Part shown: piece after piece, positions 6,631-38,501 of the stretch
How the letters are laid out: every line of letters starts with the position of its first letter
Position numbering within the stretch: the stretch's first letter is position 1
Translations under genes and position numbers: made by a program
Assembly (NCBI RefSeq): GCF_021462415.1
Contig: NZ_JAKEDS010000002.1
Coordinates: 186,001-250,000, forward strand
From: Rhodohalobacter sp. 614A
GTDB taxonomy: Bacteria; Bacteroidota; Rhodothermia; Balneolales; Balneolaceae
Length of the DNA stretch: 64,000 nucleotides
Reading direction: 5' to 3'
Notes under the pieces: model-generated
What the model saw: only the letters and a program-made list of their open reading frames with translations
Database searches by the model: none
What the model was told of the DNA's origin: nothing

Positions 6631-6669
6631 TCTGTTTAACCTTCCCGATGTATTCCTTCAGTTTACGTA

Positions 6670-7788: not shown

Positions 7789-7790
7789 AT

Positions 7791-12598: not shown

Positions 12599-12657
12599 AA
12601 AAAGATGTAATCGTAATCAGTGAATTTTTTAAATGAGTTTAGGAAAGTTGATAAAAC

Positions 12658-12685
12658 GAAGGGCGTATCCTATGAAACGCCCTTC
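12658..12685 (-). terminator. Terminator-like hairpin downstream of the siderophore receptor gene
   Basis: GAAGGGCGT (12658-12666) and ACGCCCTTC (12677-12685) are perfect complements with a 10-nt loop. On the minus strand the hairpin is followed by GTTTTATC. It lies 22 nt after the receptor stop at 12707 and 60 nt before the next start. Confidence 0.7.
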
Positions 12686-12706
12686 TGTTTCTATCACACA
12701 AAGTGG

Positions 12707-15079
12707 TTATAACGTTACCTGAACTCCTGCCTGAACGTTGAACGGTTTTTGAGGCTGGCCGTATCCGTTATAGTAATGTTCATCCGTCAGGTTGTTGAAT
12801 TTGAGCGTAAAGCGATAATCGGAATGATCATAAAATAGTGCTCCATCAAAAGTTGTATAATCAGACGAACCAAATGTATTGGTTGTGTTGATAAAGATTT
12901 CACTCACATAATTTCCACCAAAGCCGATGCCAAATCCGCCAATCGAGCCATCGATAAATCTGTGGCTCAGCCAGAAGTTAGCGACTTCCTGCGGTGAATA
13001 GGTTACGCTATTGCCTTCAAGTTCTTCATTGACATTTTCCTCAATCGTGGCTTCGTTATGAGTATATCCGGCCACCAGATTAAAACCGGGAAACGGATTG
13101 GCAATCAGATCAATTTCAAATCCTTTACTCAACGTTTCTCCTTCCTGAGCACTGTATTCTCCATAATTTAACACAGCATTTGTAATGGATATATTGTAAT
13201 AGCTGATGGTACTTTCCAGCTTATCTCCAAACAGTTGAAGCTTGGTTCCAACTTCCCACTGAGTGGCTTTTTCAGCATCGAAATTGGTGAGGTCTCCGTT
13301 TTCATTCACACCAGGCGCTACATTACTGAAGCCATCCATATAGTTTGCGAAGATCGACACTTGATCCATCAATGGGGAATAGGTGGCTCCGAGTTTGTAA
13401 GAGAACGTATCCTGATCGTATCCACTATCGTCTTCTACGCCATTTGCTACTACATTCTGATTGGTAAAGTGATCATATCTTAATCCGCCAAGAATGGTCA
13501 GCCGATCGGCCACAGTAACAGCATCAGAGACGTATAATCCAAATGTATTCTGGCTGGTTTCGTACCAGCTTCTGGAAAGATTATCTGTGATGTACTGTTC
13601 CCATGCCTGCTTCGACAATACAGGAACTGCCGGATTTTCCCCGGAGAGATCAACCCGATCATACTCGATGAAGGGCGGGCCGGGCTGAACCGCGCGTTGA
13701 TAATCATCAAATAATTTCATGTAGCTGGCACCGACCACTACTTTGTTTTCAAGATTTTCAAACGAATGAATTCCCGTAAAATCCTGCTGAAAATGGACCG
13801 ATCCGGCCGTTCTGGGAGCGTATTGAATGAAGTTTCGCTGAAGAGTATTGTCATCCAACATCACCAATCTCAGAAAATCTGCATCTACATCAATTATGGA
13901 TGAAAGAGCTTTCGTTTCAGACGACCAGTTGTCAGATATTTCATAATTAATGGTTCCGCCTAATACTCTGGATGCCATATCACTGGCCAAATCATTTCCG
14001 TGATAGGCTGTTTCGTAATCCCAGTTTAAATCATCCCAGGTATCGCCGGAAACCGCACCGGAAGCTCCGCGTGCGAAATAAAGCAGTCGTTTGGTTTTAA
14101 ACAGTTCGGCTTCTACGTTGATGGAAAGGCGATCATTCACATGATAGGTTAGTGAAGGCGCAATCATCAAATCTCTTTGAATACCCTGATCACGAAAATC
14201 ATTTTCGGAATGCACGGCTCCATTCAACCGAAACAGAACCTTGTTATCTTCATCGAGAGAAGTGTTATAATCTGCTGTAAAACGATTCAGTTCCCAGCTG
14301 CCGGTAATGTAAGACGCGCTAAAACGTTCCTGCTCCAATGGTTTTTTAGTTACCCGATTGATGAGTCCGCCATATCCGGCAATATTTTGCGTGTAGGCGC
14401 CAAACAGTGTGGACGATGGACCTTTAATCACTTCAATTCGTTCAATATTTTGTGGATCAATGGGAACCCTTGTATAGGAAACAAGACCATTTCGTACATA
14501 AGAATCGGTTCGAAATCCACGTAAATAGGCGGTTACATTCCCTTCGTTCGTTGCCACATAACCACCGCCGGTAATGCTTTTAAAAGCTGACGGAAAATCG
14601 GTAACCAACTGTTCTTGCATCAATTCATCCGTCACCACTGTGTATGACTGAGGATTGCTGAGGTTTTCGATAGGCATACGCGCAACATAGTCGGTCGTTT
14701 TCTCTGAAAATTTATTCAACCGGCTGGCAACAATAATCGCTTCATTCAGTTGCTGTGTATTTTCTGAAAGGATGACATCATCAACATTTACGGTTTCACC
14801 TGCCCGAACAGTGACCCTGAGATTTTTGGTATCCAAACCAATAAATGAGAATACCACTGTATAACTTCCCGGTTCAATATTTCGAAGAGCATACTCTCCG
14901 TTTCTGTCGGTAGCGGTACCTTTTTGTGTACCTTCAAGAATTACATTTACGGTAGCGGCGGGTTCCCCGTCCGAAGTTAACACGCGCCCTTCTATAGTCC
15001 CCGTGTTTTGAGCACTCACAATTTGTGAAAGACCTGTCAGCAGCATAAAAAAGAAAATGCCAATAGCTACTTTTTTCAT
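12707..15079 (-). CDS. TonB-dependent siderophore receptor (FhuA/FecA-like)
   Basis: 790 residues: signal peptide (1-23), a carboxypeptidase-regulatory-like domain (about 28-110), then a plug with siderophore-type signatures VTAYLRGFRTDSYVRNG and RIEVIKGPSSTLFGA. The barrel follows, with a typical C-terminal strand (FNVQAGVQVTL). The plug resembles ferric-siderophore receptors more than SusC proteins, and no SusD gene accompanies it. It is divergent from an enterochelin-esterase-like gene, and a near-perfect palindrome lies between them at 15126. Together these support import of a ferric siderophore under metal control. Confidence 0.88.
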   Translation of the reverse strand: MKKVAIGIFFFMLLTGLSQIVSAQNTGTIEGRVLTSDGEPAATVNVILEGTQKGTATDRNGEYALRNIEPGSYTVVFSFIGLDTKNLRVTVRAGETVNVDDVILSENTQQLNEAIIVASRLNKFSEKTTDYVARMPIENLSNPQSYTVVTDELMQEQLVTDFPSAFKSITGGGYVATNEGNVTAYLRGFRTDSYVRNGLVSYTRVPIDPQNIERIEVIKGPSSTLFGAYTQNIAGYGGLINRVTKKPLEQERFSASYITGSWELNRFTADYNTSLDEDNKVLFRLNGAVHSENDFRDQGIQRDLMIAPSLTYHVNDRLSINVEAELFKTKRLLYFARGASGAVSGDTWDDLNWDYETAYHGNDLASDMASRVLGGTINYEISDNWSSETKALSSIIDVDADFLRLVMLDDNTLQRNFIQYAPRTAGSVHFQQDFTGIHSFENLENKVVVGASYMKLFDDYQRAVQPGPPFIEYDRVDLSGENPAVPVLSKQAWEQYITDNLSRSWYETSQNTFGLYVSDAVTVADRLTILGGLRYDHFTNQNVVANGVEDDSGYDQDTFSYKLGATYSPLMDQVSIFANYMDGFSNVAPGVNENGDLTNFDAEKATQWEVGTKLQLFGDKLESTISYYNISITNAVLNYGEYSAQEGETLSKGFEIDLIANPFPGFNLVAGYTHNEATIEENVNEELEGNSVTYSPQEVANFWLSHRFIDGSIGGFGIGFGGNYVSEIFINTTNTFGSSDYTTFDGALFYDHSDYRFTLKFNNLTDEHYYNGYGQPQKPFNVQAGVQVTL

Positions 15080-16761: not shown

Positions 16762-18996
16762 ATGAAAGAATTATCTGTTTTACTCTCACTAATTTTGATT
16801 ATTCCCTATATCGGATTCGCTCAAAATCAGGTTGGAGAGATTGAAGGAATCGTTAAATCGAAAGGTGAAATGGTTATCGGGGCAAATGTTGGAATCCCCG
16901 ATTTGCAAAAGGGTGCGGCTACCGATGCCAACGGATTTTATCACATCAAAAATATTCCGGCTGGTACGTACACACTGGAGATCTCATCAGTGGGGTTTCA
17001 AAAATATTCTGAAACTGTTGAGGTTCAATCCGGTGAAATTCTGGAATTGAATATCGAGCTGGAAGAATCCACACTTGAGCTCGATCAAATAGTCGTCACA
17101 GGAACGATGAGGAAAATCTATGTGAAGGACTCTCCGGTGAAAGTCAGCGTGGTGAAAGCTGCCCAGCTTGAGCAGGGAAAAGTCAGTGCTAATATTATGG
17201 ATTTGATCAGTAGTGTAAACGGACTTTCCACGCAACTAAATTGTGGAGTTTGCGGAACCAATGCCATTCGAATCAATGGAGTGGAAGGGCCAAACACAGC
17301 CGTACTGATTGACGGTATGCCGATCATGGGTGCGCTGGCCTCTATTTATGGATTGAATGGAATCAGCCCGTCTATTATTGATCAGGTTGAAGTGATTAAA
17401 GGCCCTCAATCTACGTTGTATGGAACACAGGCGTTGGGTGGAGTGGTCAATATCATCACAAAAAACCCTGCCACCACGCCTACATTTTCTGCAGATATTT
17501 ATGGCAAGACTACTGAAGAAGGAAATGTAAACCTGGCGTATTCTCCAAAAATCGAACGTTTTGAAGGGTTTTTGAGCGGAAATGTTGTGCGACTGGAAAA
17601 CTATTTTGACAAGAACGGCGACAACTTCAATGATCTTGTGAAGCAGTCCCGGGTCTCTCTTTTCGGAAAAGGTACATTGCTCGGAGAGAATATGGAACAG
17701 CGGCTGAATGTGGCCACCAAGTTTTACACTGAAAACAGAACCGGCGGCCTCCAGGATTTTACAGATGATTTGCGCGGATCGGATCAAATATACGGGGAAT
17801 CGATCTACACCAACCGGTTGGAATTGATGACCGATTACCGGCCTGCAGGCCTCAACGAACAACTTCGTTTTAGCGGAGCGGCAACCTATCACGAACAAGA
17901 CAGTTATTACGGAACGGACTGGTACGACGCTCAGCAGAGCATCTACTTTCTGCAGGGTACTTGGGATCAGTCAATAGGAGATCATTTTAAGCTCCTCAGC
18001 GGAACCACCATCCGATATGAAACCTACAACGATAATACTCCAGCCACCTCAGATAGTCCTGACCGACGTTGGATTCCCGGAATCTTCTCTCAGGGTGAAT
18101 TGGCTATAGGTGATTTTACATTTGTCGGTGGACTCCGAATCGATCATCATTCTGAACACGGGTATATAACGGCACCGAGATTATCCGCAAAATTCAGCCC
18201 GACCGATCTGACCACATTTCGTGCCAGTGCCGGAACCGGATTTCGGGTTGTGAATGTTTTTACAGAAGATCATGCCGCGCTGACGGGTGCGCGTGAAGTT
18301 GTTTTCAATGAAGATCTTGACCCTGAACGATCAAAAAGCATTACCGCAAGTTTGGAGCAAATTATTCCGTTTGGTGTCAACCCGCTTACTGTTAGCTTGG
18401 ATGGTTTTTACACGCATTTTTCAAATCAAATCATTCCGGATTATGACCAAGATCCCAACCTGATCGTCTATGAAAACCTGAACGGATTTTCAGTCACACG
18501 CGGATTTTCAGTAGATATCGATCAAAATTTTACAACCATTCCATTCAGCTACAATGCAAGCATTACTATTATGGATGTATTTACCGAAGAGGACGGCAAT
18601 CGTAAAGCCCTGGTTTATGCTCCGGATTATCTCGGCACCTTTGGAGCCACGTATGACATTCGGTCACTTGATGGCCTTTCATTTGGATATAACGGAAATC
18701 TGGTTGGCCCGAAACGCATGCCAAATAATTATGTAGAAGATTTTGGTCTGGATGAATGGTCCCCGGCTTACTCCACACATGATCTTAAAATCACCAAAGA
18801 ATTTACAAATGTGAATAGCCCGAACGGAATTGGTTTTGAAGTGTATGTATCGGCAGAAAATATCTTCGATTTCAAACAGGACAGCCCTTTGGTTGATCCG
18901 CAAGATCCTTTTGGTCCCAATTTCGATACCATTTATACATGGGGACCAATTGTTGGGCGAACATTTTCACTCGGTGCCAGACTAAATCTTCGATAG
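16762..18996 (+). CDS. TonB-dependent receptor with a CxxC pair in the plug domain
   Basis: 744 residues: signal peptide (1-20, ending GFAQ), a carboxypeptidase-regulatory-like domain (about 26-105), a plug (about 115-235) and a barrel ending in FSLGARLNLR. The plug contains NCGVCGTNAIRINGVEG (Cys161 and Cys164). I found no other cysteine in the whole protein. The following VLIDGMPIMGALASIYGLNG and VEVIKGPQSTLYGTQALGG are canonical plug segments of the receptor family. The next gene, an exported thioredoxin-fold protein, starts at the very next base. Import of a metal complex (iron, copper or another metal) is likely. The exact substrate is unknown. Confidence 0.88.
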   Translation: MKELSVLLSLILIIPYIGFAQNQVGEIEGIVKSKGEMVIGANVGIPDLQKGAATDANGFYHIKNIPAGTYTLEISSVGFQKYSETVEVQSGEILELNIELEESTLELDQIVVTGTMRKIYVKDSPVKVSVVKAAQLEQGKVSANIMDLISSVNGLSTQLNCGVCGTNAIRINGVEGPNTAVLIDGMPIMGALASIYGLNGISPSIIDQVEVIKGPQSTLYGTQALGGVVNIITKNPATTPTFSADIYGKTTEEGNVNLAYSPKIERFEGFLSGNVVRLENYFDKNGDNFNDLVKQSRVSLFGKGTLLGENMEQRLNVATKFYTENRTGGLQDFTDDLRGSDQIYGESIYTNRLELMTDYRPAGLNEQLRFSGAATYHEQDSYYGTDWYDAQQSIYFLQGTWDQSIGDHFKLLSGTTIRYETYNDNTPATSDSPDRRWIPGIFSQGELAIGDFTFVGGLRIDHHSEHGYITAPRLSAKFSPTDLTTFRASAGTGFRVVNVFTEDHAALTGAREVVFNEDLDPERSKSITASLEQIIPFGVNPLTVSLDGFYTHFSNQIIPDYDQDPNLIVYENLNGFSVTRGFSVDIDQNFTTIPFSYNASITIMDVFTEEDGNRKALVYAPDYLGTFGATYDIRSLDGLSFGYNGNLVGPKRMPNNYVEDFGLDEWSPAYSTHDLKITKEFTNVNSPNGIGFEVYVSAENIFDFKQDSPLVDPQDPFGPNFDTIYTWGPIVGRTFSLGARLNLR

Positions 18997-19491: not shown

Positions 19492-19609
19492 AAATAAAAA
19501 AGTGCTTTCTATCCCTTTTTCTAATCAACCCAATTGTTGAAAACTTGCCGGAAATGTGGAAAAGTATTCATTGACAATGAGTTGCCCAGCCGTTTAATTA
19601 CAAGCAGAT

Positions 19610-19790
19610 TTTAAAGGTGCCCCGAACATTCGGGGTGAAAAGGGAATCCGGTGGAAATCCGGAGCTGTCCCCGCAACTGTAATCCGGTTTATTTCTTTAT
19701 TTACACCACTGTTTCAGCCCCAAAAGAAACGGGAAGGTTTAAAGAGATCATCGGTAAGTCAGGAGACCTGCCTTCTATAAATCAGTAAAC
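19610..19790 (+). promoter_or_regulatory. Cobalamin (adenosylcobalamin-type) riboswitch
   Basis: The region has the conserved core of the B12 element: GGTGCCCC..GGGG, then AGGGAATCCGGTGGAAATCC, GGAGCTGTCCCCGCAACTGT, and the terminal B12 box TAAGTCAGGAGACCTGCC (19755-19772). A downstream AAGGCAG (19820-19826) can pair with CTGCCTT (19768-19774), which could form an expression platform. It lies 126 nt upstream of metE, the standard target. B12 binding would be expected to turn expression off. Confidence 0.95.
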
Positions 19791-19915: not shown

Positions 19916-22252
19916 ATGTTAACACATACCCTTGGATTTCCCCGCCTTGGTGCGCAGCGAGATTTGAAAAAACTCGTCGAGTCGTACTGGAAAGGAGAAA
20001 TCGATCAATCTAAACTGATTCAATCCACATCAGCTCTAAAAGCGGTCCACTGGACCCAACAGAAGAGTGCCGGGATCGATCTGGTTCCGTCAAATGACTT
20101 CTCTCTCTACGATCAGGTTCTGGATACAGCTCTCCTTGTCGGAGCCATTCCGGATCGATACAAAGATTTATATCAGTCCGAACAAGAAAAATCTACCAGC
20201 TACCCTATTGATACCTATTTTGCCATGGCCCGTGGATTGCAGGATGACAAACACGACATCCCCGCTATGGAAATGACCAAATGGTTTAATACCAATTATC
20301 ATTACATTGTGCCGGAATTTTCGGCCGATCAGGAATTTGAATGTCTGTCCACCAAAATTTTTGATGAATATGAAGAAGCACAATCTGTAGGAGTTGTTAC
20401 CAAACCCGTGCTTATTGGTCCGGTTAGTTTTTTGCTTCTCGGAAAAGAGAAAGATACATCTGATGGATTTCACCGGTTAGATCTGCTTGATAAATTGTTG
20501 CCTGTCTATCAGGAAATTCTGAGCAAACTTCAGGACAAAGGTGTTGAATGGGTTCAGATTGAAGAACCATTCCTGGCGCTGGATCTTGAAGATGATGCGA
20601 AAATATCTTTTCAAAAAGCCTATGAAACGTTTCACCAGGATCTTGATAGCTTAAAGCTTTTGCTTACCACATATTTTGAAGGACTGAGTGATAATACAGC
20701 GCTGGCCTGCGGACTTCCCGTAGACGGACTTCACATTGATTTGGTGAATGATCCGGATCAGCTGGGTAACGTGTTGGATCAACTAAACGAAGAAACAGCG
20801 CTATCTTTGGGATTGATTGACGGCCGAAATATCTGGAAAACTGATCTTCAAAAAGCAGCAGCTTTTGTTGAAAAAGCAAAAGAAAAAATCGGAGAGGATC
20901 GACTGTTAATCGGCTCGTCTTGCTCACTGCTTCACAGTCCGGTAGATCTGGATCAGGAAACCGACGAAACCGCTCTTCCTGCTAAAGTGAAGCGTTGGAT
21001 GTCTTTTGCGAAACAAAAATTGGGAGAAATTTCTCTGCTGAAAAAACTTGTAGCTGATGAACTTTCTGCCGATGAAAAGCAAAAGCTGGAAAAGCATCAA
21101 GCCGATGTAGACGACAAACGGACATCTGAGCTTGTAAACAATCCAAGCGTTCAAAGCCGAATGGATAATCTGGATGACTCCTACCTGAACCGTAAACAAC
21201 CGTTTACCGAACGGCAGGCTGTTCAAAAAGAGCATCTCAACATTCCTGAAACGTTTCCTACCACCACCATAGGTTCGTTCCCTCAAACATCAGAAGTACG
21301 AAAATGGCGGGCCGATTACCGGAAAGGAGTTCTTTCGGAAGATCAGTACACAGAAATCATCCATAAAGCCATCAGCGAACTGATCAAAACCCAGGAAGAA
21401 ATTGGACTGGATGTATTAGTACACGGTGAATTTGAACGGAATGATATGGTAGAATATTTCGGTGAACATTTTTCCGGATTTGCTTTTACGCGCAACGGCT
21501 GGGTACAAAGTTATGGAACACGAGGAGTAAAACCGCCCATTGTGTATGGTGATGTACACCTTCCCGATCCGGTAACTGTTCCATGGTCGGCGTATGCGCA
21601 ATCGCAAACCGACAAACTCGTAAAAGGAATGCTAACGGGTCCGGTCACTATTTTGCAATGGTCGTTTGTGCGGGATGACCAGCCCCGATCCGAAACCGCG
21701 AAACAGATTGCACTGGCCATTCGCGATGAAGTACAGGATCTGGAAAAAGCCGGTATTCAAATCATACAAATTGATGAACCTGCCTTCAGAGAAGGATTAC
21801 CGCTTCGATTGGATAAACGCGAGGCGTACTTAACATGGGCTGTGGATGCTTTCCGAATTTCGTCCACCGGAGTGGAGGATAAAACTCAAATCCATTCTCA
21901 TATGTGTTACTCGGAGTTTAATGACATCATTGAGCACATTGCACGCCTGGATGCGGATGTTATTTCCATGGAAACATCGCGTTCACAAATGGAACTGCTG
22001 GATGCCTTCGTACAATTCGATTATCCGAATGAAATTGGCCCGGGAGTGTATGACATTCACTCGCCGCGAATTCCTTCCACAGAAGAGATGGTAGCACTAT
22101 TGGAAAAAGCCGTTGAAGTGCTGAAACCCGAACAAATTTGGGTAAATCCTGATTGCGGACTTAAAACCCGCGGCTGGGAAGAAACCATTCCATCACTAAA
22201 AAATATGGTGCAAGCCGCCGGAAAAATGAGGCGAGAAACTGTCGAATCTTAA
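19916..22252 (+). CDS. metE: Cobalamin-independent methionine synthase
   Basis: 778 residues. The N-terminal half begins with the family hallmark HTLGFPRLGAQRDLK. The C-terminal catalytic half has TTTIGSFPQTSEVRKWRADY, and the zinc ligands are in HSHMCYSEF (His and Cys), a Glu in ISMETSRSQ, and PDCGLKTRG (Cys about 747). It transfers the methyl group of 5-methyltetrahydrofolate polyglutamate to homocysteine in the cytoplasm. The length is close to the E. coli enzyme. A B12 riboswitch lies upstream, so expression should rise when B12 is scarce, presumably with a B12-dependent MetH elsewhere in the genome. Confidence 0.97.
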   Translation: MLTHTLGFPRLGAQRDLKKLVESYWKGEIDQSKLIQSTSALKAVHWTQQKSAGIDLVPSNDFSLYDQVLDTALLVGAIPDRYKDLYQSEQEKSTSYPIDTYFAMARGLQDDKHDIPAMEMTKWFNTNYHYIVPEFSADQEFECLSTKIFDEYEEAQSVGVVTKPVLIGPVSFLLLGKEKDTSDGFHRLDLLDKLLPVYQEILSKLQDKGVEWVQIEEPFLALDLEDDAKISFQKAYETFHQDLDSLKLLLTTYFEGLSDNTALACGLPVDGLHIDLVNDPDQLGNVLDQLNEETALSLGLIDGRNIWKTDLQKAAAFVEKAKEKIGEDRLLIGSSCSLLHSPVDLDQETDETALPAKVKRWMSFAKQKLGEISLLKKLVADELSADEKQKLEKHQADVDDKRTSELVNNPSVQSRMDNLDDSYLNRKQPFTERQAVQKEHLNIPETFPTTTIGSFPQTSEVRKWRADYRKGVLSEDQYTEIIHKAISELIKTQEEIGLDVLVHGEFERNDMVEYFGEHFSGFAFTRNGWVQSYGTRGVKPPIVYGDVHLPDPVTVPWSAYAQSQTDKLVKGMLTGPVTILQWSFVRDDQPRSETAKQIALAIRDEVQDLEKAGIQIIQIDEPAFREGLPLRLDKREAYLTWAVDAFRISSTGVEDKTQIHSHMCYSEFNDIIEHIARLDADVISMETSRSQMELLDAFVQFDYPNEIGPGVYDIHSPRIPSTEEMVALLEKAVEVLKPEQIWVNPDCGLKTRGWEETIPSLKNMVQAAGKMRRETVES

Positions 22253-22386: not shown

Positions 22387-23373
22387 ATGAACCCTAAACT
22401 TATTGGAAAAACATCTGTCCGCGACAACATAAAATTAAGTGAGGACCCATCGTATCCAATTTTTCGTGAACTTTATGAAAAACAGAAAAAAGCTGTTTGG
22501 TTTCCTGAAGAGCTAAATATTCAGCAGGATGCGCTGGATTATCATTCCCTGTCTGATGATGAAAAAGATCTTTTTGATACCGCGGTCGGTTATTTTTGCT
22601 CATCAGAATTGCTGGTACAAAATGTATTGGTCAATTCCTTTTTCCCACTGCTAACCGACCCTCATGCAAAAATGAGTTTCAGTACGCAGCTTTTTATGGA
22701 AAACATCCATAGTGACTTTTTTGAAATCGTTTTGCAATCGTTCGGAATGGATCGCGAAAAAATGTACGATGTAGCTTTTTCTGATCCCATTCTTCGCAAA
22801 AAGCAGTCGCTAATTGTAGAAGAGATCGACAAAATCAGTTACAACGGAATTGACCCAAATTCCACCGAAGGTCAGAAAGATATTCTTCGTGCTATTCTTC
22901 TGAATAACATTATTCTCGAAGGTATTTTCTTTTACTCCTCATTCGCACACTTCTTTGCACTGAAAGATATGGGCAAAATGAAAAATGTTGTTTCCGGTGT
23001 GGAACTGGTTTTAATTGATGAATCTCTCCACCTGCAAAATGGTATTGAAGCTATTCTCATCATGCTGGAAGAAAATCCCGGCATCGTGGAAGACGAGCAA
23101 TATGTACAAGAGATTCGTGACGTGATTCTGGAAGGAACGGCTCTGGAAATTGAATATGTACAACACAAATTTGGCAATAAAACCATTCTTGGAATTTCAT
23201 TTGGCGAGATGGAACGCTACCTGAAGTACATTACCGATCGACGCCTGCAGGAGCTCGGATTTGAACAGGAATTCCACATCACGGAAAACCCGCTTCGATT
23301 CCTGCAAAAAGAAGATGTGAAAAAGCTGATCAACTTTTTTGAAGTGTCATCCACCGAATACACCAACTATTGA
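22387..23373 (+). CDS. nrdB: Ribonucleotide reductase beta subunit, class Ic (Mn/Fe)
   Basis: 328 residues from ATG 22387, with a GTG at 22276 rejected because its extension has no family similarity. The metal ligands are Glu74 (SSELLVQN), Glu105 and His108 (MENIHSDFF), Glu178 (ILEGIFFY), Glu212 and His215 (DESLHLQ). The residue at the radical-Tyr position is Phe112. The first ligand is Glu, not the Asp of class Ia. The offsets between these residues are the same as between the Chlamydia trachomatis residues E89, E120, H123, F127, E193, E227 and H230. That is class Ic, using a Mn(IV)/Fe(III) centre in place of a tyrosyl radical. It supplies the oxidant to NrdA for dNTP synthesis. Confidence 0.95.
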   Translation: MNPKLIGKTSVRDNIKLSEDPSYPIFRELYEKQKKAVWFPEELNIQQDALDYHSLSDDEKDLFDTAVGYFCSSELLVQNVLVNSFFPLLTDPHAKMSFSTQLFMENIHSDFFEIVLQSFGMDREKMYDVAFSDPILRKKQSLIVEEIDKISYNGIDPNSTEGQKDILRAILLNNIILEGIFFYSSFAHFFALKDMGKMKNVVSGVELVLIDESLHLQNGIEAILIMLEENPGIVEDEQYVQEIRDVILEGTALEIEYVQHKFGNKTILGISFGEMERYLKYITDRRLQELGFEQEFHITENPLRFLQKEDVKKLINFFEVSSTEYTNY

Positions 23374-23464: not shown

Positions 23465-25873
23465 ATGCAACGCACAGTAATAAAACGAGACGGCACTGAA
23501 CAGGATTTTCGCACTCAAAAGATCATCAATGCCATTTTTGAAATTATACAAGGACTGAAAGTTGAGGATGATTATGAGCTCGTTTTTCTCATCATGAAAG
23601 AGCTCGACTTGAAAGTTCCGGAACGGGTAACCACCGAGGAGCTTGATCGCCTTGTACTTAAAGCTATTGAACAGCTTATTCCAAAGCATCCCGTGTATGA
23701 TACACTCGCCACACGGCAGTTATTAAAGCTGATCAACAAAGGCATTAATCGCCGTCTGGATAGTTTTGAAGCTTATTTTGAACATGCACTGGACCAAAAT
23801 CTGCTGGATGAAAGTTTGAGGGAGTTCGATATTGAATTGTTGTCTGGTGCCCTGAATTACGAGAGAGACGGCTTGCTTGATTATTTCGGTTTAACAACGC
23901 TGAAGGATCGCTATCTGATGAAAAACAGACAGACCGAAACGATCGAAAAACCGCAGTGGTTTTTTATGCGAGTGGCAATGGGGATTGGCAATTCCAACGA
24001 AGAAGTCGTTAAAATCTATAACAAGCTGTCGAAGCTGGAATACCTGCATTCCACACCGACGTTGTTCAACTCGGGAACGGTCACCTCTCAGTATTCTTCC
24101 TGCTATGTGAGCGTGGTGGATGATTCGTTGGATTCGATCATGAATAAAGTTCGCGAAACCGGGTTTTTAGCCAAATATGCCGGCGGTGTCGGAACGGATA
24201 TCACGCGTGTTCGGGCGACTGGTTCAAATATTAAATCCCTGAATGCACCATCATCCGGAGCGATTCCTTTCATTAAGATTTTTGATACACTGGTGAATTC
24301 CATTCAGCAGGGTGGCCGCCGCCGAAGTTCTCAGGTGATTTCTATGCAGCCTTGGCATCTGGATATTGACGGATTTCTGGATCTTCGTGAAACCACTGGA
24401 AATGCTTATTTCCGAACTCCATCACTAAACACCAAACTCTGGATGCCGGATGAAATGATGCGCCGGATTCATCAAGGCGAACCGATTTATCTGTTTGATC
24501 CGGGGGAGTGCCCTGAATTGGTAGAAGCGTTTGGTGATGATTTCAAGAAAAAATATGAAGCCCGAATTGAACAGGCAGAAGCAGGAAAACTGGATCAGTT
24601 CAAAAAGCTTGACAGCCAGAACTTCTTCAAAAAATATTTGTTTAAGTTAGCCAAAACGGGTCATCCATGGTTGATCTTTAAAGATGAGCACAACCGTCAC
24701 AATCCGTGCCCGGAATACAGTGTCATCAACAGCTCCAATCTCTGTACGGAAATTTCGATTCCAAACCGGCCGGATTCAACCGCCGTTTGTACACTGGCAT
24801 CCATCAATCTTTCTCAACATGTGAAAGAAGACCAGAGTGATGTGGATTGGGAAAAACTGGAAGACACGATTCAGGTGATGGTTCGCGGGCTTGATAATAT
24901 TCTCGATAAGAATTTTTATCCATCCGAAGCCGCCCGAAAAAACACGATGGACTTGCGTCCGCTTGGCATCGGTTTGATGGGTTTTGCAGAAGCGTTGATT
25001 GATCTCAACATCTCATATGATTCTGAAGAAGCCGTGATTTTTGCGCGTAAACTCGGCGCTTTCATGAAAAAAATTGCCTACCAAACGTCAGAAAAACTGG
25101 CTGAAGAACGCGGTGCATTCAATCATTATCAGGAAATGGAGGAGCAGGACAAGCCCTACGACTATGCTCCCCGCCGAAATGCAGTGCTTTTAGCCATTGC
25201 GCCAACGGCGTCTATCTCCATTATTTCCGGCACCACTTCCTCCATCGACAGTTACTTCAGCAATCTCTATTCCCGCGATACGCTTTCCGGGAAACATATT
25301 GTGATTAATCGTCAGTTAATTCGTGATCTGGAAGAAAAAGGACTATGGAATGATGAAATGGCCGACACCATCAAAGCCAATAGTGGTTCTGTTCAGCATA
25401 TCCGGGAATTGGATGGAGTGATCGAAAAAGAGCTCTATAAAACGGCGTATGAAATTCATCCAAAACGACAGGTAGATATTGCTGCAGCTTTCCAGGAATC
25501 GATTGATCAGGCGGTTTCTAAATCGATTTATATTGACGAGCAGCTCCGTGGAAATATGGAAGAGATCTATATCTACGCGTGGGAGAAAAAACTGAAATCC
25601 ACCTATTATTGCTTTATCGACAAAGTGGTGAAAGGCGAAAAGTATACCTCCAAAGTGAATAAACGAGGAACACGACGAGGATTCGGAGCAACGGGATCTT
25701 CTAAAAACTCAGCGGTTCAGTCCAAACCCGAGCAAGAGGAAAGTTTGGAGGAATTGGAAAAAAAAGCCCGAAAAAAATTCGGAGATGATGTGGTAGATCA
25801 GGCATTATCTGCCGATGCAGATTCCTGTCCGACGGATCCCATGTTGCGAAAGATCTGCCCGAGTTGTGAGTAA
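23465..25873 (+). CDS. nrdA: Ribonucleoside-diphosphate reductase alpha subunit
   Basis: 802 residues. An ATP-cone lies at the N-terminus (VIKRDGTEQDFRTQKIINAI), followed by the R1 barrel with STPTLFNSGT and SSCYVSVVDDS (active-site Cys), GGVGTDITRVRATGS, NSSNLCTEI (Asn-x-Cys-x-Glu), a PTASISIISGTTSSI segment, and a C-terminal CPSCE shuttle pair. It reduces ribonucleoside diphosphates using the radical-initiating NrdB encoded 91 nt upstream. The ATP-cone implies allosteric control of overall activity. The gene may be transcribed from the metE riboswitch promoter. Confidence 0.96.
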   Translation: MQRTVIKRDGTEQDFRTQKIINAIFEIIQGLKVEDDYELVFLIMKELDLKVPERVTTEELDRLVLKAIEQLIPKHPVYDTLATRQLLKLINKGINRRLDSFEAYFEHALDQNLLDESLREFDIELLSGALNYERDGLLDYFGLTTLKDRYLMKNRQTETIEKPQWFFMRVAMGIGNSNEEVVKIYNKLSKLEYLHSTPTLFNSGTVTSQYSSCYVSVVDDSLDSIMNKVRETGFLAKYAGGVGTDITRVRATGSNIKSLNAPSSGAIPFIKIFDTLVNSIQQGGRRRSSQVISMQPWHLDIDGFLDLRETTGNAYFRTPSLNTKLWMPDEMMRRIHQGEPIYLFDPGECPELVEAFGDDFKKKYEARIEQAEAGKLDQFKKLDSQNFFKKYLFKLAKTGHPWLIFKDEHNRHNPCPEYSVINSSNLCTEISIPNRPDSTAVCTLASINLSQHVKEDQSDVDWEKLEDTIQVMVRGLDNILDKNFYPSEAARKNTMDLRPLGIGLMGFAEALIDLNISYDSEEAVIFARKLGAFMKKIAYQTSEKLAEERGAFNHYQEMEEQDKPYDYAPRRNAVLLAIAPTASISIISGTTSSIDSYFSNLYSRDTLSGKHIVINRQLIRDLEEKGLWNDEMADTIKANSGSVQHIRELDGVIEKELYKTAYEIHPKRQVDIAAAFQESIDQAVSKSIYIDEQLRGNMEEIYIYAWEKKLKSTYYCFIDKVVKGEKYTSKVNKRGTRRGFGATGSSKNSAVQSKPEQEESLEELEKKARKKFGDDVVDQALSADADSCPTDPMLRKICPSCE

Positions 25874-26102: not shown

Positions 26103-26190
26103 TACCGAAGGCCGGGCTCGAACCGGCACTCGCATTGTAATGCGAATTGGATTTTAAGTCCAACGCGTCTACCAATTCCGCCACTTCGGC
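26103..26190 (-). tRNA. tRNA-Leu (anticodon TAA)
   Basis: On the minus strand the sequence folds as an 88-nt class II tRNA. The acceptor is GCCGAAG/CTTCGGT, the D-arm contains AATTGGTAGACGCG, the anticodon stem-loop is TTGGA-CTTAAAA-TCCAA (anticodon TAA), there is a long variable arm (TTCGCATTACAATGCGA), and the T-arm is GCCGG-TTCGAGC-CCGGC. The CCA end is not fully encoded. Anticodon TAA with a long variable arm identifies leucine. Confidence 0.95.
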
Positions 26191-29768: not shown

Positions 29769-31028
29769 CTAAGTTATCGCAATTTTACGATTACTAAAAC
29801 CAAAGTAAGCAACTACCATAAAACAGATCACCGGCACAAAAAAGGAGAGGTGTATGCTTCCACTGATATCGGAAACCTGCCCCTGGATAGCCGTTAATAC
29901 AGCGCCGCCGAGAATCGCCATAATCAAACCGGAACCAGCAATTTTTCGGTCTTGCCCCAGTCCCTGTGAAGCCAGGCCGAAAATAGTAGGAAACATCAGG
30001 GACATGCATCCGGAAATTCCCACCAACGCAAGAACACCCACAAATCCTCCGATAAAAATCACAATCAATAGAAAGATGACGGCAACAAACGCACTAAAAA
30101 TGAGAAGGATGGACCCGCGAAATTTTTTGAGAAGCGCTGTGAAAGCGAATCGCATAATCGTAAATAAAACGAGTGCAGCCAGGTAATAGTTAGCTGCTCC
30201 GCTTTCATTCAGATCAAGTTCACCCATCACGTATCGAATCGTAAATGACCAAACTCCAATCTGTGCACCTACATAGAAAAATTGTGCAACCACTCCCCAT
30301 CGGTAATTTGGGTTGTTGAATAGTCTCTTGAGCGAAGAACCCAGATGAATACTTTCTCCCATTTCTGAAAATTTGGGCATTTTTACTATGGAAATGGTGA
30401 TCCAGATGACGGCCAAAAGCAACGCCACGCCGACGTAAGGTCCCATGACTGCAGAAAGTTCTTGTTGTTGAATAAGTTGGAGTTGTTCGGCGCTGAGTCC
30501 CGCTCGGGTAGTGGCATCTGCCGTATTCAGATTATTGAGGATAAAAAACTTGCTCAGCAGCACTCCGGAGATGGATCCGATTGGATTAAAAGATTGAGCC
30601 AGGTTTAGTCTCTGAACGCTGCTTTCGTCCGATCCCATTGCCAGGATATAGGGATTGGCCGTAGTCTCCAAAACCGATAAACCTCCTGCAAGAATAAAAA
30701 GTGCCGTGAGAAAATGACCGTAAACCATTGTTTGGCTGGCGGGATAAAACAAAAGAGCTCCCAGGATGAAAAACCCAAGACCGAGCAGAATACCGGCCTG
30801 GTAGGTAAATTTCCGAATAAAAATGGCCGCAGGAAGAGCAAGACAAAAATACGAACCATAAAAAGCCACCTGTATCCATGACGTTTGAAAATCGGTCATA
30901 CTCATGATTCTCTTAAATGCCGCAAGCAGCGTATCCGTCATATTGTTGGCCAGCCCCCACATAAAAAACATGCTGGTGACGAGAACAAAAGGAATCAGGC
31001 ATTTTTTTTCAATAACGGAAGAAGACAT
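29769..31028 (-). CDS. fucP: L-fucose:H+ symporter
   Basis: 419 residues, about 12 membrane spans, MFS superfamily of the FHS/FucP group. The N-terminal FFMWGLANNMTDTLLAAFKR contains the Asp that couples protons and sugar. Later marks are ETTANPYILAMGS and RLNLAQSFNPIGSISG, also typical of FucP and of related glucose/galactose transporters. It sits among L-fucose catabolic genes. It is slightly shorter than the E. coli protein (438 residues). Confidence 0.9.
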   Translation of the reverse strand: MSSSVIEKKCLIPFVLVTSMFFMWGLANNMTDTLLAAFKRIMSMTDFQTSWIQVAFYGSYFCLALPAAIFIRKFTYQAGILLGLGFFILGALLFYPASQTMVYGHFLTALFILAGGLSVLETTANPYILAMGSDESSVQRLNLAQSFNPIGSISGVLLSKFFILNNLNTADATTRAGLSAEQLQLIQQQELSAVMGPYVGVALLLAVIWITISIVKMPKFSEMGESIHLGSSLKRLFNNPNYRWGVVAQFFYVGAQIGVWSFTIRYVMGELDLNESGAANYYLAALVLFTIMRFAFTALLKKFRGSILLIFSAFVAVIFLLIVIFIGGFVGVLALVGISGCMSLMFPTIFGLASQGLGQDRKIAGSGLIMAILGGAVLTAIQGQVSDISGSIHLSFFVPVICFMVVAYFGFSNRKIAIT

Positions 31029-31098
31029 GGCTTTAGGTTTAAAAATCAGGTTAAAGTGATCTCGAATCGTTCATGTTTGGATTTTTGAATACGACAAT

Positions 31099-31884
31099 TC
31101 AACGATTATAAGCCCGGTCAAAATGAACATATCCGCCATCCACAAATAGCCATTGACCGGTTGTATGAGAACTCCGGCTGCTGAGTAAGAATACGGTAGC
31201 GGCTGCAATTTCCTCAGAGGTTGTCATTCGTTTTTCGAGGGGAATGCGATCTGTAATTTGAGCCAAGCTGCGTTCAGAATCATCAAAAGAGTTAATCCAT
31301 CGTTCATACTGGGGAGTCATGACTTCAGCAGGGACGACGGCATTCACCCGAATTCCGTATTGAGCTAATTCAACCGCCCATTCCCTTGTCAGAGCAAGCT
31401 GTGCTCCTTTGCTGGCGGCATACCCAGATGTACCTCCTTGGCCGGTTATGGCTGTTTTTGAGCTAATATTAACAATCGATCCTTTCGTTTTTTTGAGATG
31501 CGGAAGAGCATAATGTGCGAGATCATAGTAGTGCAACAGGTTAGTGATAACGGATTTTTTGAACGCTTCAGGACTGCCGGAATCCAACCCAACGCCATCG
31601 TTAACACCGGCGTTGTTTACGATTCCGTGTAAAGCTCCAAACGTATCTACCGTTTTTTGCACGGCTTCTTTACAGATCTCGGGATTCGGTAACTCAGCCA
31701 TGATATTCAGACATTTACCGCCTCCTTCTTTGATCTTTTTTTCAATATCGATACCGGCTTCTTTCGATCTGCCCAGAATTACGGGAATTGCGCCTTCCTT
31801 CACCAATTCCAAAACAATTCCTTCGCCAATTCCCTTGGCACCGCCGGTGACGATAAAAACCTTGTTTTTCAGGTGTAAATCCAT
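31099..31884 (-). CDS. SDR-family L-fucose dehydrogenase
   Basis: 261 residues. It has the Rossmann glycine motif VTGGAKGIGEG, the NNAGVND motif, catalytic Ser in NISSKTAITG and YxxxK in SGYAASKGAQLA. The gene starts 6 nt after the lactonase stop. It oxidises L-fucose to L-fucono-1,5-lactone with NAD(P)+, the first step of the non-phosphorylating route. The assignment as fucose dehydrogenase rather than another SDR comes from the complete pathway around it. Confidence 0.85.
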   Translation of the reverse strand: MDLHLKNKVFIVTGGAKGIGEGIVLELVKEGAIPVILGRSKEAGIDIEKKIKEGGGKCLNIMAELPNPEICKEAVQKTVDTFGALHGIVNNAGVNDGVGLDSGSPEAFKKSVITNLLHYYDLAHYALPHLKKTKGSIVNISSKTAITGQGGTSGYAASKGAQLALTREWAVELAQYGIRVNAVVPAEVMTPQYERWINSFDDSERSLAQITDRIPLEKRMTTSEEIAAATVFLLSSRSSHTTGQWLFVDGGYVHFDRAYNR

Positions 31885-31890
31885 AAAATG

Positions 31891-32718
31891 TTACATTAGT
31901 TGATAAAATTTTGCGGCTGAAATCCCCATAATATTGTCGTATTCAGCCGCGCTTAATCCGTCCAGAAAATCTTCAACAATTCCTATCACTTCATCATATT
32001 CACCGGCTAAAAGGCAAACCGGCCAATCAGAACCAATCATAAGTCGATCAGCTCCAAACAATTCAAGACATGTTTCTAAATATGGTGTGAATTCATTTTT
32101 TTTCCAATGATTCCAATCTGCTTCAGTCACCATTCCTGATAACTTCACATGAACATGGGGAAACCCGGCCAGTTTTTTCATGTGAGCGGCCCAATCATCA
32201 AACGAACTTTCTTTGATGGTTGGTTTGGCAATGTGATCAATCACGAAATTCATTTCGGGAACTCGTTCCACGAACTTTACAGTTTCATGAAGCTGGTTTT
32301 CAAAAATGAGGATATCGTAGCGAAATCGAGTCTGCTGAAGCGTTTCGATTCCGGCGATAAAGGAATCGTCAAGCATGGTTCCGGTCGGCTGTCCCTGGAG
32401 AATATGTCGGAATCCCTTTAGCTTGTCGTATTGGGAAAAGTGTTCTAGACGCTGGTTTAAATTGGGAGCTTTCAAATCAACCCAACCTACAACACCTTTG
32501 ATGAAATCATGTTTCTCTGCCAGATTTAACAGGAAGTATGTTTCCTCTTCGGATTGATCTGCCTGAACGGATATGCAACCATCAAATCCGGTTTTTTTGA
32601 GGACGGGTTCCAGATCTTCCGGCATAAAATCCCGCCGGATGACTTCCATGGAATCGTCAATCCACGCATCACGTACAGGATCAAATTTCCAGAAATGTTG
32701 GTGGGCGTCAATTTTCAT
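31891..32718 (-). CDS. Amidohydrolase-family L-fuconolactonase
   Basis: 275 residues of the COG3618 amidohydrolase group. The first metal motif is [10 protein letters not shown] near the N-terminus, and a late motif is [11 protein letters not shown] (the metal-ligand Asp). It opens L-fucono-1,4/1,5-lactone to L-fuconate. It lies between the fucosidase gene (11 nt overlap) and the fucose dehydrogenase gene. Members of this family also act on rhamnono-lactone and other lactones, so substrate is assigned by context. Confidence 0.88.
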
Positions 32719-35203
32719 CGGAATCGGCTGAAGTTAAAACATACGTTTGTCCAGCTTCTGTATTCAGATCGTATAAATAAACGTCCCGAAGATCCAAGCT
32801 TGCAATTTCAGCTTTCGGACTGATTATCGGTTCCTTGATTTCCGGCACGTCATAAAACGGGTTCGGATTTTCGCCAGATGCTTCTTCAAGCCCTTTTCCT
32901 TCCAAAGGAGTGTAGGAACGAATTCGGCTGTTGCCGCCAAGATCAGACTGAATCAAAACTCTTTTTGCAACTCCATTTTCCCATTCAATGTCTACTTCAA
33001 ATCCGCCGTTTGCCCTGAGCCCTTTTACGTACCCTTCACTCCAGGCTGTTGGTAGTGCCGGTAAAATATGAATAGCTTCGTCGTGGCTCTGCAGAAGCAT
33101 TTCAGCGATTCCTGCTGTGCATCCAAAGTTTCCGTCGATCTGGAAGGGGGGATGAGCATCAAATAAGTTAGGATAGGTGCCGCCCCGTTCCGAGCCGTCG
33201 GACTGACGAGACGGGCTGAGTTGATCCTGGATCAGTTTATAAGCGTGATCTCCGTCTAAGAATCGTGCCCAAAGATTCACCTTCCAGCCCATGGACCAGC
33301 CGGTGGAAACATCGCCGCGGTATAAAAGCGATTGACGGGCGGCTGCAAAAAGTTCCGGTGTTCGGTACGGAGAAATCTGGTTTGATGGATAAAGCCCGTA
33401 CAAATGAGAAACGTGTCGGTGATCATCTTCCGGATCATCCCAATCATAAATCCATTCCTGCAACTGTCCGTACTGGCCAATTTGCATGGGTGGCAGCTTG
33501 GATTTCATCTCTTCGAGTTCCTGAACGAACTCCTCATCCAGATTGAACAATTCGGCTGTTTTTTGGGTGATCGAGAATAAATCGAAAATCAGTTGATTGT
33601 CCATCGTAACTCCGGATGATATGGCCGCGCTTTTCTCGTCTTCATAATGATAGACATTTTCGGGAGATACGGAAGGTGTTACAACCATCCAGTCGCTGTC
33701 GGCAAATGGCTGCAATTCATCCAGGTAAAATTGCGATGATGATTTGAGAACCGGGTAAAACGATTCAATGAAGTCCGTATCGCCGGTAAAATTATAGTGT
33801 TGATAGATGTGCTGGTTATACCAGGCTCCGGCCATTGGCCACATACCCCAGGAAAAAGCGCCGTCAACGGGATCGGTTACCCTCCAAAGATCCGTGTTGT
33901 GATGAACCACCCAGCCATCTGCATTGTAGGTTTGACGCGCACTCTGCTGACCCGTTACCGAAAGGTCGTGAATCATGTCAAACAAGGGTTGATGCAATTC
34001 ACTCAAATTGGTAACCTCAGCCGGCCAGTAATTCATCTCCGCATTGATATTTTGCGTGTATTTACTGTCCCAAGGCGGCATCATATGATGATTCCAGATT
34101 CCCTGTAATGTTGGCGGCTGACCACCCGGCTGCGAAGAAGAGATCAACAAATATCTCCCGAATTGAAAGTAGAGCGCGGCTAACTGCGGATCATCTGATG
34201 TGGCAAAATCTTTAACCCGGATATCTGTCGTTTTTTGAGCGGCGTCTGTCTTTCCTAAATACAAATCCACACGATTGAAATAGGATTGATAGAACTCAAT
34301 GTGATCTTTCAGAAGATCCTCGTAGTCTTTTTGAAAAGCATTTTGAAGATGATTGGATGCCATTTGCTCCGGATCGCCGCTCAGATCATCATAGTTTTGG
34401 AAATTGGTTTCGATAGAGATAAAGAGTGTCAGGTCATCAGCATTCTGAACAGACAATGTGGAATCGCCAGCAGAAATTTCACCCCCATTTTGTACAGCAC
34501 GAATGGTTGTTTGAAACCTGACTTTGCCTTCTTTCCCCTCATGATCGCTGGTTCGTCCGGATATTTCCATATTATTTTCATGGATAGAAATCCGGTGCTC
34601 CTGCGGACTTTCAAAGGAGAGGACACTATTTATCCTGCCGGGTTGATCAGCGGTTATTTTCATGACAATCACATCATCCGTAAAAGAAGAAAAACCCTCT
34701 CTGTGATAGGTAACACCGTCAATTTTGTAGGATGATGTGGAAACGGCAGTTTCAAGATCAAGTGTTCGCGAGTAATCCGAATATGAATCATGACCGGGAA
34801 ATTCGATAAACAGATTCCCAACCGGTTGATACGGCATCCCGTCATTCATCGACTGAACATGTTCGTTTGCATATTCTTGTGCTTCCGCATACCTGCCTTC
34901 ATTCAGCAATTTTCTTATTTCGGGAATTGCATCAGCGGTCTCCGGATTAATATTATTGCCGGGTTCACCCGCCCAAACCGTTTCCTCGTTCAATTGCAAC
35001 TCCTCTCTGGCTGGATTTCCGAAAATCATGGCTCCCAATCGTCCGTTTCCAATTGGCAGAGCTTCAACCCAATCATTGGCCGGTTCATCATACCTGAGAG
35101 TCAGATCCTGTTCTTTTGGCTGGATTCCCTGCTCGGTTCGGTTGCATCCAGCCAGGAACAGAATCACAAAAAAGCATAATAGGACGGGAACTGTTCTTGT
35201 CAT
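32708..35203 (-). CDS. GH95 alpha-L-fucosidase, predicted lipoprotein
   Basis: 831 residues from ATG 35203. An ATG at 35368 would overlap the upstream hydrolase by 143 nt and hide the lipoprotein signal ([16 protein letters not shown]). The N-terminal domain starts [20 protein letters not shown]. Catalytic-region marks are [34 protein letters not shown] (general acid Glu) and [15 protein letters not shown] (Asp). GH95 enzymes cleave alpha-1,2-linked L-fucose with inversion. As a lipoprotein it probably faces the surface or periplasm and releases fucose for FucP. The 22-nt spacing from the upstream gene and the 11-nt overlap downstream show operon structure. Confidence 0.93.
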
Positions 35204-35225
35204 AAGACGGGTAATTTTTTGTGAT

Positions 35226-36074
35226 TTATTTCTTATAAGCGATGGCAGTTTGTTTGGCTGTTCCCAATCCGTCAATTCCCAGTTCCATAACATCGCCCGG
35301 TTTGAGATATCGCGGTGGTTTGAATCCAAGCCCGACACCTTCTGGTGTTCCTGTGGAAATGATATCACCCGGCATTAAACTCATGAATTGAGAGAGATAA
35401 CTTACTATATGAGGAATATTGAAGATGAAATCTTTCGTATTTCCATCCTGCAATTTTTCTCCATTCAGTTTAAGCCAGAGGCGCAGATTATGTGGATCAG
35501 CAACCTCGTCTTTCGTTACGAGATAGGGGCCCAAAGGCGCGAATGTATCGCAGCTTTTTCCTTTTACCCACTGACCTCCGCGTTCAAGCTGAAACTCGCG
35601 TTCGCTAACATCATTATGAACGGCGTATCCTGCAACGTAGTCCATCGCTTCCTCTTTCTCTACGTAGTTTGCCTGTTTGCCGATAACCAGGGCCAGCTCA
35701 ACTTCCCAGTCTGTTTTCGTACTGTTTTTGGGGATGATAACCGGATCAAACGGACCGCTAAGTGAAGAATTTGCTTTGAAGAAAATGATCGGTTCCTTCG
35801 GGATTGCAGCCCCGCTTTCTGCGGCGTGTTTACTGTAATTCAAACCAACACAAATAATCTTCCCAGGTTTGTGAATCGGCGCTCCAATTCGAACGTCATC
35901 ATCAACCCGAGAAGCTTTTTCAGGATCAAAATTCGATTCAAGTTTTTCAAGTCCGCCTTCTACGAAAAACTCTTGGTTATAATCGCTTACAAGATGGCTG
36001 ACATCATATTTTACTCCGTCAGCTTCAATGCCGGGTTTTTCGGCTCCCGGTTGGCCGTATCTGAATAATTTCAT
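35226..36074 (-). CDS. FAH-family hydrolase, probable 2,4-diketo-3-deoxy-L-fuconate hydrolase
   Basis: 282 residues. The fumarylacetoacetate hydrolase domain (about 65-280) has [30 protein letters not shown] and [13 protein letters not shown], with acidic metal ligands. [13 protein letters not shown]-type sequence ([19 protein letters not shown]) closes the active site. The enzyme would split 2,4-diketo-3-deoxy-L-fuconate to pyruvate and L-lactate, the last step of the pathway. It lies 83 nt downstream of the keto-deoxy-fuconate dehydrogenase. Other acylpyruvate substrates are possible from sequence alone. Confidence 0.88.
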
Positions 36075-36157
36075 CTTTATATTTGGTTTTTTTGAGGACG
36101 ACCAGCAGAATGAGACTTAACAATAAGCCTTTGTGTTCTCTGCAGTTGGTCCATTCA

Positions 36158-36907
36158 TTAGTTATTTATTTTGATAAATCCGCCGTCAATCGGGTAATCA
36201 GTTCCGGTTATAAAACCGGCTTTATCGGAACAAAGGAAAAGTGCGAGTTCGGCAACTTCTTCTGGTTTGGCCATCCGTCCGATTGGCTGTGTTTTTGATA
36301 ATTTATCATACATTTCCTGCTCTTGTCCCGGATAATTCTGGGCCAAAAATCCATCCACAAAAGGTGTGTGAACCCGGGCTGGGGAAATGGAATTACAGCG
36401 GATGCCATCGTTAATATAATCTTTAGCCACGGAATAGGTCATCGTGAGAACCGCGCCTTTGGTCATGGTGTATGCAAAACGGTCCGGAATCCCCACATGA
36501 GAAACCACCGAAGCCATGTTCAAAATACATCCCTTTGATTTCTTCAAAGCTCCAATGGATGCCTGGATACAGTTAAAAACTCCTTTAATATTAACACTGT
36601 AGAGCCGATCCAGATCTTCTTCACTTGTTTGTTCAATATTCCCGACTTTCGCAATTCCGGCGTTGTTTACCAGTATATTCAGCTCTTCGGTTTCGGTGAT
36701 TTTTTGGATGACTTCATGAACTTGTCTGTGATTGGAAACATCACATTGGTGAACAGTGATTGCCGACTCATTTTGTCCGATTTTCACATCTTCCTTGAGT
36801 TCCAGAACATGAACTTTCGCTCCGTTAGCAATAAACAGATTTGTGATGGCGAGGCCAATTCCACTTGCTCCTCCTGTGACGATTGCGGTTTTGTCTTTTA
36901 ATTCCAT
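36158..36907 (-). CDS. SDR-family 2-keto-3-deoxy-L-fuconate dehydrogenase
   Basis: 249 residues. It has VTGGASGIGLA, NNAGIAKVG, catalytic Ser in NMASVVSHVG and YxxxK in AYTMTKGAVL, with a C-terminal TGTDYPIDGG end. It should oxidise C4 of 2-keto-3-deoxy-L-fuconate with NAD+. It lies between fuconate dehydratase and the FAH-family hydrolase. As with other SDRs, substrate is assigned by position in the pathway. Confidence 0.87.
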   Translation of the reverse strand: MELKDKTAIVTGGASGIGLAITNLFIANGAKVHVLELKEDVKIGQNESAITVHQCDVSNHRQVHEVIQKITETEELNILVNNAGIAKVGNIEQTSEEDLDRLYSVNIKGVFNCIQASIGALKKSKGCILNMASVVSHVGIPDRFAYTMTKGAVLTMTYSVAKDYINDGIRCNSISPARVHTPFVDGFLAQNYPGQEQEMYDKLSKTQPIGRMAKPEEVAELALFLCSDKAGFITGTDYPIDGGFIKINN

Positions 36908-37018
36908 TTGTCTCAGATTTTCGATTAAATATGAGCAGTTATTTTAAAAATAGTAATTGTCGTTAGGCCCACATCCTCAGAAATTATCTTGTCGATTCCC
37001 CCTTCAAATGAGGAATCT

Positions 37019-38320: not shown

Positions 38321-38501
38321 ATCCAATACTTTATGGGCCAAATGGTTATGCAAAAGTGTGCAGTTAAAACCTGTTGCATCTAAAATAGAAATGGCCGCTC
38401 GAATATCAACGGATTTTTTTCTTGAGAATAAATATTTCTGAATGCAGGAATGCTATTTTAAGTTCAATGCTATTGAAGTAGAATTTTTAAAAGATGAAAG
38501 A

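Follow-up and report, generated by a model that had tools for sequence, protein, structure and literature searches.

The NrdB protein encoded in the window (the whole 64,000-nucleotide stretch of Rhodohalobacter sp. 614A DNA analysed here; Table 1) appears to represent a Glu/Phe lineage of class I ribonucleotide reductases (RNRs) outside class Ic, and is probably a backup for vitamin B12 starvation controlled by a cobalamin riboswitch. The sequence-only reading had described NrdB as a class Ic (Mn/Fe) subunit of interest for metal demand near an iron-uptake island. Our results show that this reading described the site correctly and named a plausible cofactor, whereas it overreached in the class assignment and overlooked the biological context. 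Indeed, the regulatory reading, based on B12, is better supported than the class Ic assignment.

Table 1. Features of the window discussed in the text, with positions counted from its first nucleotide.
Feature	Position	Strand	Description
ABC transporter (binding protein, permease, ATPase)	5503-8582		Below cut-off for iron-siderophore/ferrichrome and B12 (BtuC/BtuD) models
Siderophore-type TonB receptors	10217-15079	-	At least 7 kb upstream of nrdB, other strand
TonB-dependent receptor	16762-18996		Best NCBIfam match the B12 receptor TIGR01779, 105 bits, far under cut-off
Cobalamin riboswitch aptamer (RF00174)	19598-19789	+	Heads the metE-nrdB-nrdA run; Rfam cmscan
metE	19916-22252	+	B12-independent methionine synthase, 778 aa
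nrdB	22387-23373	+	Intact 328-aa frame with stop at its end; class I RNR β subunit
nrdA	23465-25873	+	Catalytic (α) subunit of a class I RNR, 802 aa, PF02867 488 bits

The dimetal site of NrdB and its NrdA partner

The NrdB frame opens with an ATG at the same place as in its relatives and matches the Pfam profile Ribonuc_red_sm (PF00268) with 211.8 bits (cut-off 33.6). This profile match, the fold and the adjoining α gene identify it as the β subunit (R2) of a class I RNR, and no second R2 was found in the genome. In the phmmer alignment, the residues W51, E89, E120, H123, F127, E193, F197, Y222, R225, D226, E227, H230 and Y338 of the Chlamydia trachomatis chain (1syy) were confirmed. Both phmmer and MAFFT place the chlamydial E89, E120, H123, F127, E193, E227 and H230, ungapped, on E74, E105, H108, F112, E178, E212 and H215 of NrdB, positions that were also read in the frame itself together with W38 and Y325. 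The six metal ligands and the Phe at the position of the radical Tyr are thus exactly where the earlier reading had placed them, and its constant offset of 15 from the chlamydial numbering is right in both alignments. A Tyr at the aligned radical position, which it had named as refuting its assignment, was not seen; with F112 there, no tyrosyl radical is expected at this position, as it had proposed. The six ligands and the Phe are invariant across all members of the NrdB family examined.

A Phe/Glu pairing is described for class Ic, Tyr/Glu for class Id and Tyr/Asp for class Ia/Ib (PMC8463856). NrdB carries this class Ic signature as E74/F112, aligned to E89/F127, and the pair rules out class Ia/Ib, which needs a radical Tyr and an Asp as first ligand. 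Among PDB chains, phmmer ranks the class Ic protein of S. erythraea first (6y2n, 1.8e-39), followed by that of C. trachomatis (1syy, 8.4e-37), with class Ia behind both at about 1e-27. The alignment of NrdB to class Ic R2s is therefore far beyond chance.

The AlphaFold2 model, built from a 38-sequence alignment, has the R2 fold (pLDDT 85.4, pTM 0.85), with low confidence in the tail, from residue 309 onward. Class Ic structures come first both in Foldseek (E 3e-16) and in VIA-align (Z 39, 2.0 Å over about 290 residues), the next group reaching Z 35 and R2s overall Z 31-39. The input alignment held class Ic-like sequences that may pull the model towards this class, so that the structural match is supportive of, not independent of, the sequence comparison.

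The partner NrdA is also intact. A motif alignment, in which an out-of-frame Acinetobacter α row was ignored, shows its conserved cysteines, the Tyr dyad (YY) and a C-terminal CPSC, and there is one N-terminal ATP cone (PF03477, 39.6 bits). The pairing of nrdB with nrdA is kept in 11/11 related loci. The gene order differs from the nrdA-nrdB of class Ic, and NrdA falls outside the model for class Ic partner α subunits, NF005544 (PRK07207), with a score of 616 against a cut-off of 965, whereas the α partners of two R2s of class Ic type reach 1688 and 1092.

Phylogenetic position of the NrdB family

If NrdB were an orthodox class Ic protein, it would be a fast-evolving member of that clade that works as the C. 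trachomatis enzyme does, with site 1 taken by Mn and site 2 by Fe. It has much in common with the class Ic R2s (C. trachomatis 1syy/4m1i, S. erythraea 6y2n), which are its best match by sequence and by structure: the same six ligands including the Glu at ligand 1, the Phe, the fold, and equivalents of Trp51, Phe197 (F182 in NrdB), Asp226 and Tyr338. Nevertheless, the identity is about 30%, and the phylogeny separates the two. In a tree of 71 rows, whose R2s from outside the Bacteroidota came exclusively from plasmid, phage and viral records and the PDB, the NrdB family forms its own clade (100/99) on a stem of length 2.27, outside a 96/95 clade that comprises every class Ic sequence and their Tyr-bearing kin. 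This isolation holds in a tree without R2lox and the longest rows. AU tests reject a union of the family with the Chlamydia-type class Ic (p 0.016, or 0.021 once the signature columns are blanked) and with the Saccharopolyspora-type class Ic (p 0.018), while its placement as sister to the whole 96/95 clade is not rejected (p 0.19). A single union of the family with all class Ic gave p 0.015 and 0.003, but this test is weakened because class Ic is itself split in the tree, and the separate tests for each class Ic branch are therefore relied on instead. The exact position of NrdB is uncertain because long branches are involved; the robust part of the tree result is that NrdB does not nest within known class Ic. 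In agreement, the same region of NrdB scores 188 bits on NF005550/PRK07209, the NCBIfam family model covering both the Chlamydia and Saccharopolyspora class Ic, against a cut-off of 309, whereas the C. trachomatis protein reaches 532 and that of S. erythraea 579.

The alignment and tree proposed with the earlier reading thus gave a divided answer: the ligands and the Phe align with class Ic, and NrdB branches outside its clade. The premise that Glu plus Phe suffices to define class Ic is not supported, since R2lox proteins from the same genus carry both residues and since the pair occurs among true R2s at two separate places, both inside the Tyr-bearing class Ia group of the tree. As R2lox shows, an RNR-type Mn/Fe oxidant does not follow from Glu/Phe either. 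If this holds, the Glu/Phe signature used for class Ic is not proof of class Ic.

The pair that NrdB has in common with R2lox could also mean that NrdB is itself an R2lox-like oxidase and not a reductase subunit, a probability that is close to nil. R2lox forms a separate 100/100 clade, NrdB scores no more than 63 bits on the NCBIfam R2lox models, whose cut-offs are 194 or higher, and NrdB keeps W38, Y325, D211 and the Phe of the R2c core (F182), besides its constant pairing with nrdA. Tree, models and operon together rule out the R2lox identity, which is refuted in practice.

Three departures constant in the NrdB family

The family departs from class Ic at three places, none of which the earlier reading had noted. 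First, the equivalent of the chlamydial Tyr222 is Leu207, and every family member has Leu there. In C. trachomatis, the activating electron travels by way of Tyr222 and Trp51, and Tyr222 has been described as conserved among R2c proteins (PMC4118035). The position is aromatic in 15/15 other Glu/Phe R2s (Tyr in 12, Phe in 3), so that the loss of the Tyr, first taken as unique to the NrdB family, has to be stated more softly. Second, the Arg of the RDE motif (Arg225 in C. trachomatis) is replaced by Ile210, again constant across the family. Its E. coli counterpart, R236, is listed among the residues that keep the radical pathway's water network stable (PMC11482829), and the Arg is kept in nearly all other R2s of the set, with Lys in two partial viral sequences. 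Class Id is the exception, with Ile or Val, and the idea that the Arg-to-Ile change is unique to the NrdB family was dropped. Third, the protein ends exactly three residues past Y325, the last Tyr of the radical path, in 24/24 members, in contrast to at least seven residues past the equivalent Tyr in 81/81 other R2s. In class I β subunits, a C-terminal extension of roughly ten residues binds α; it is absent in class O (PMC9531940). The rest of the known radical pathway is kept (Trp38, Glu42, Asp211, Phe182 and Tyr325).

Judged from these residues, the NrdB lineage would differ from class Ic in electron injection, in the water/Arg environment of the pathway and in the docking peptide, and its activation and radical-transfer steps must therefore differ from those of C. 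trachomatis. Together with the tree and the family model, the absence of Tyr222, Arg225 and the tail throughout the family makes the orthodox class Ic reading quite unlikely. What stands of the original assignment is the Glu/Phe pair and the nearest solved structures; clade membership, the family model and the three departures speak against it. It is possible, if tentative, that the family is a separate subclass of class I RNRs, with a metal-only Glu/Phe oxidant that arose independently of class Ic or was kept from an older ancestor, another route of electron injection, no RDE Arg and docking without a tail. The family offers a natural test of which residues are needed beyond the ligand sphere, because it lacks Tyr222, the RDE Arg and the tail that docks to α.

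Other R2s of the set show further combinations at these positions. Two from genomes of the same class (L066, L067) have Glu at ligand 1, Leu at the radical position, and keep both the Tyr222 equivalent and the RDE Arg; they are another candidate metal-only lineage. The class Id-type R2s (L082-L086) all have Ile or Val at the RDE Arg (5/5) and Trp at the Tyr222 position.

Other classes and the choice of metals

A Mn/Fe cofactor is plausible for NrdB and is predicted from its ligands, but the identity of the metals is the least secure part of the proposed mechanism, because class Id shares the Glu and the absent Arg and uses Mn/Mn. The same scaffold could therefore be metal-only with Mn/Mn (class Id-like, activated by superoxide) or with Fe/Fe. 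Class Id R2s of the F. johnsoniae type likewise have Glu at the first ligand and a hydrophobic residue at the RDE Arg, and NrdB sits on a long, isolated branch. In contrast, the markers of class Id, Tyr104 and Lys71, are absent, with Phe (F112) at the radical position and Gln (Q78) four residues past ligand 1, which rules out class Id itself. The identity to class Id is only about 22%, the trees show no affinity to it, and its α subunit differs from NrdA, which carries an ATP cone. Taken together, these observations make another metal pair unlikely, and we favour Mn/Fe. Class O, the ferritin-like proteins of phages, resembles NrdB in having Phe or Leu at the radical position and in ending almost directly after the C-terminal Tyr. 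However, class O proteins average 240 aa, with an α of 412 aa lacking the cone, unlike the 328 aa of NrdB and the 802 aa of NrdA with its cone; size and cone rule out this class.

A cobalamin riboswitch and the B12 economy of the genome

The riboswitch at the head of the run is a full-length match to RF00174 (model positions 1-189; 126 bits against a gathering score of 31.5; E 3e-31). It is followed by metE, which is well supported by two NCBIfam models (NF003556, 1137 bits, cut-off 541; TIGR01371, 1092 bits, cut-off 930). The association is conserved: 11/11 related loci have a cobalamin riboswitch 5' of nrdB, immediately ahead of it or separated from it by metE, and a riboswitch precedes nrdB in all 12 other Balneolaceae genomes checked as well as in both Prolixibacteraceae. 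Within those 12 genomes, the distance to nrdB is 112-153 nt, or about 2.5-2.9 kb where metE lies between. RNAalifold on 12 leaders gave no clear shared terminator or RBS hairpin past the end of the aptamer, and counts in a promoter/terminator scan were at or below chance. The direction and mechanism of switching are taken by analogy from known B12 switches, according to which the riboswitch would repress metE-nrdB-nrdA at high B12.

The gene content of the genomes agrees with such a role. The class II, B12-dependent NrdJ (~1200 aa) is present in 13/13 Balneolaceae genomes with nrdB (this one and the 12 others), and 5/6 of the checked Balneolaceae genomes without nrdB have only the class II enzyme. 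This genome also encodes the B12-dependent MetH (437.8 bits), and CbiC was not found in it. No member of the Balneolaceae encodes cobalamin synthesis according to a study on Fodinibius (PMC9909488). The two features that define a B12-switched backup RNR, a riboswitch 5' of nrdB and NrdJ in the same genome, are thus found together. A known strategy places metE under a B12 switch for methionine synthase (PMC9600662), and a B12 riboswitch on the S. coelicolor nrdABS, beside NrdJ, is cited in PMC4991794. There too, a cobalamin riboswitch controls a B12-independent class I RNR and NrdJ is encoded in the same genome, but the enzyme is class Ia, whereas the one studied here is of the Glu/Phe type and often stands in a run with metE.

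We consider it likely, therefore, that nrdBA encodes an oxygen-dependent, B12-independent class I RNR with a metal-pair oxidant, kept as a riboswitch-controlled backup for when cobalamin runs out. With ample cobalamin, the riboswitch would hold the metE-nrdB-nrdA message off, as in the analogous systems, and NrdJ and MetH would do the work. When cobalamin falls, expression would be freed, and MetE and NrdBA would be made together. NrdB would then assemble its dimetal cofactor on E74, E105, H108, E178, E212 and H215 with O2 or peroxide. With F112 in place of the Tyr, the oxidised metal pair itself would be the oxidant, most likely the Mn(IV)/Fe(III) pair of class Ic, and the hole would pass along W38, D211 and Y325 to the Tyr dyad and the Cys of NrdA. 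If true, this is an RNR, probably of Mn/Fe type, tied to the supply of vitamin B12. A single RNA switch would let bacteria that are predicted to lack B12 synthesis exchange the cobalt chemistry of NrdJ and MetH for that of NrdBA and MetE, based on Mn/Fe and free of B12.

Other cobalamin riboswitches and RNAs occur nearby or elsewhere in these genomes. The second cobalamin riboswitch of this genome (C2:506281-506476; L148:3087-4994) lies directly 5' of a btuB-like TonB-dependent receptor and a small protein of ATP-binding type. In one Balneolaceae MAG, a further cobalamin riboswitch lies just 3' of nrdA, ahead of another gene (L037 7534-7755). In the window, Rfam places a tRNA with a long variable arm just 3' of nrdA (26103-26190, minus strand).

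Iron-related genes of the window

The link to an iron-uptake island drawn by the sequence-only reading overlooks what stands at the head of the operon. One could suppose that the operon belongs with neighbouring iron-uptake genes and serves at low iron, and the window does contain siderophore-type receptors and an ABC transporter of Fe or B12 type. Yet these genes are at least 7 kb from nrdB, the receptors on the opposite strand; neither the receptors nor the transporter adjoin nrdB or are kept there in related loci. The immediate control element is the cobalamin riboswitch, which in relatives is constant upstream while the neighbouring genes vary. A role in iron limitation is therefore improbable, and nrdBA is probably a B12-starvation backup RNR and not an accessory of an iron island.

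Some of these transport genes may themselves serve B12. The ABC transporter may carry it, because btuC, btuD and btuF have been reported in Fodinibius (PMC9909488), and the TonB-dependent receptor at 16762-18996 may likewise be for B12 instead of iron. This receptor is followed by a thioredoxin-like protein. Farther along the window (29769-38353), open reading frames alone read as a fucose-like sugar catabolic run with a transporter, dehydrogenases, an amidohydrolase, a large glycosidase-like protein and an enolase-superfamily protein.

Distribution of the NrdB family

The family has a restricted distribution. In a peptide-pattern scan of 84,980 species, proteins close to NrdB (82-93% identical) came only from Balneolaceae (Fodinibius, Gracilimonas and MAGs) and from two Prolixibacteraceae (Mariniphaga and Sunxiuqinia). 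Of 394 genomes sampled across the phylum, 11 besides this one carry nrdB, all of them Balneolaceae, and a close copy (86% identical) is present in 1/27 genus-mates. No intermediates were found between the family and other R2s, the next of which are at most about 32-34% identical to it. An IMG/VR scan with the protein alone found no viral relative, and one with a mixed alignment gave only R2s about 20-34% identical; a viral origin was accordingly set aside.

Mariniphaga and Sunxiuqinia (L040, L041) carry the same riboswitch-nrdB-nrdA unit, with an NrdB 82% identical to that of the Balneolaceae. This suggests that the unit was transferred between Balneolaceae and Prolixibacteraceae together with its switch. 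The genome of one relative holds, in addition, a third stretch of large-subunit RNR sequence, interrupted by a TGA (G326:C22:83199-84681).
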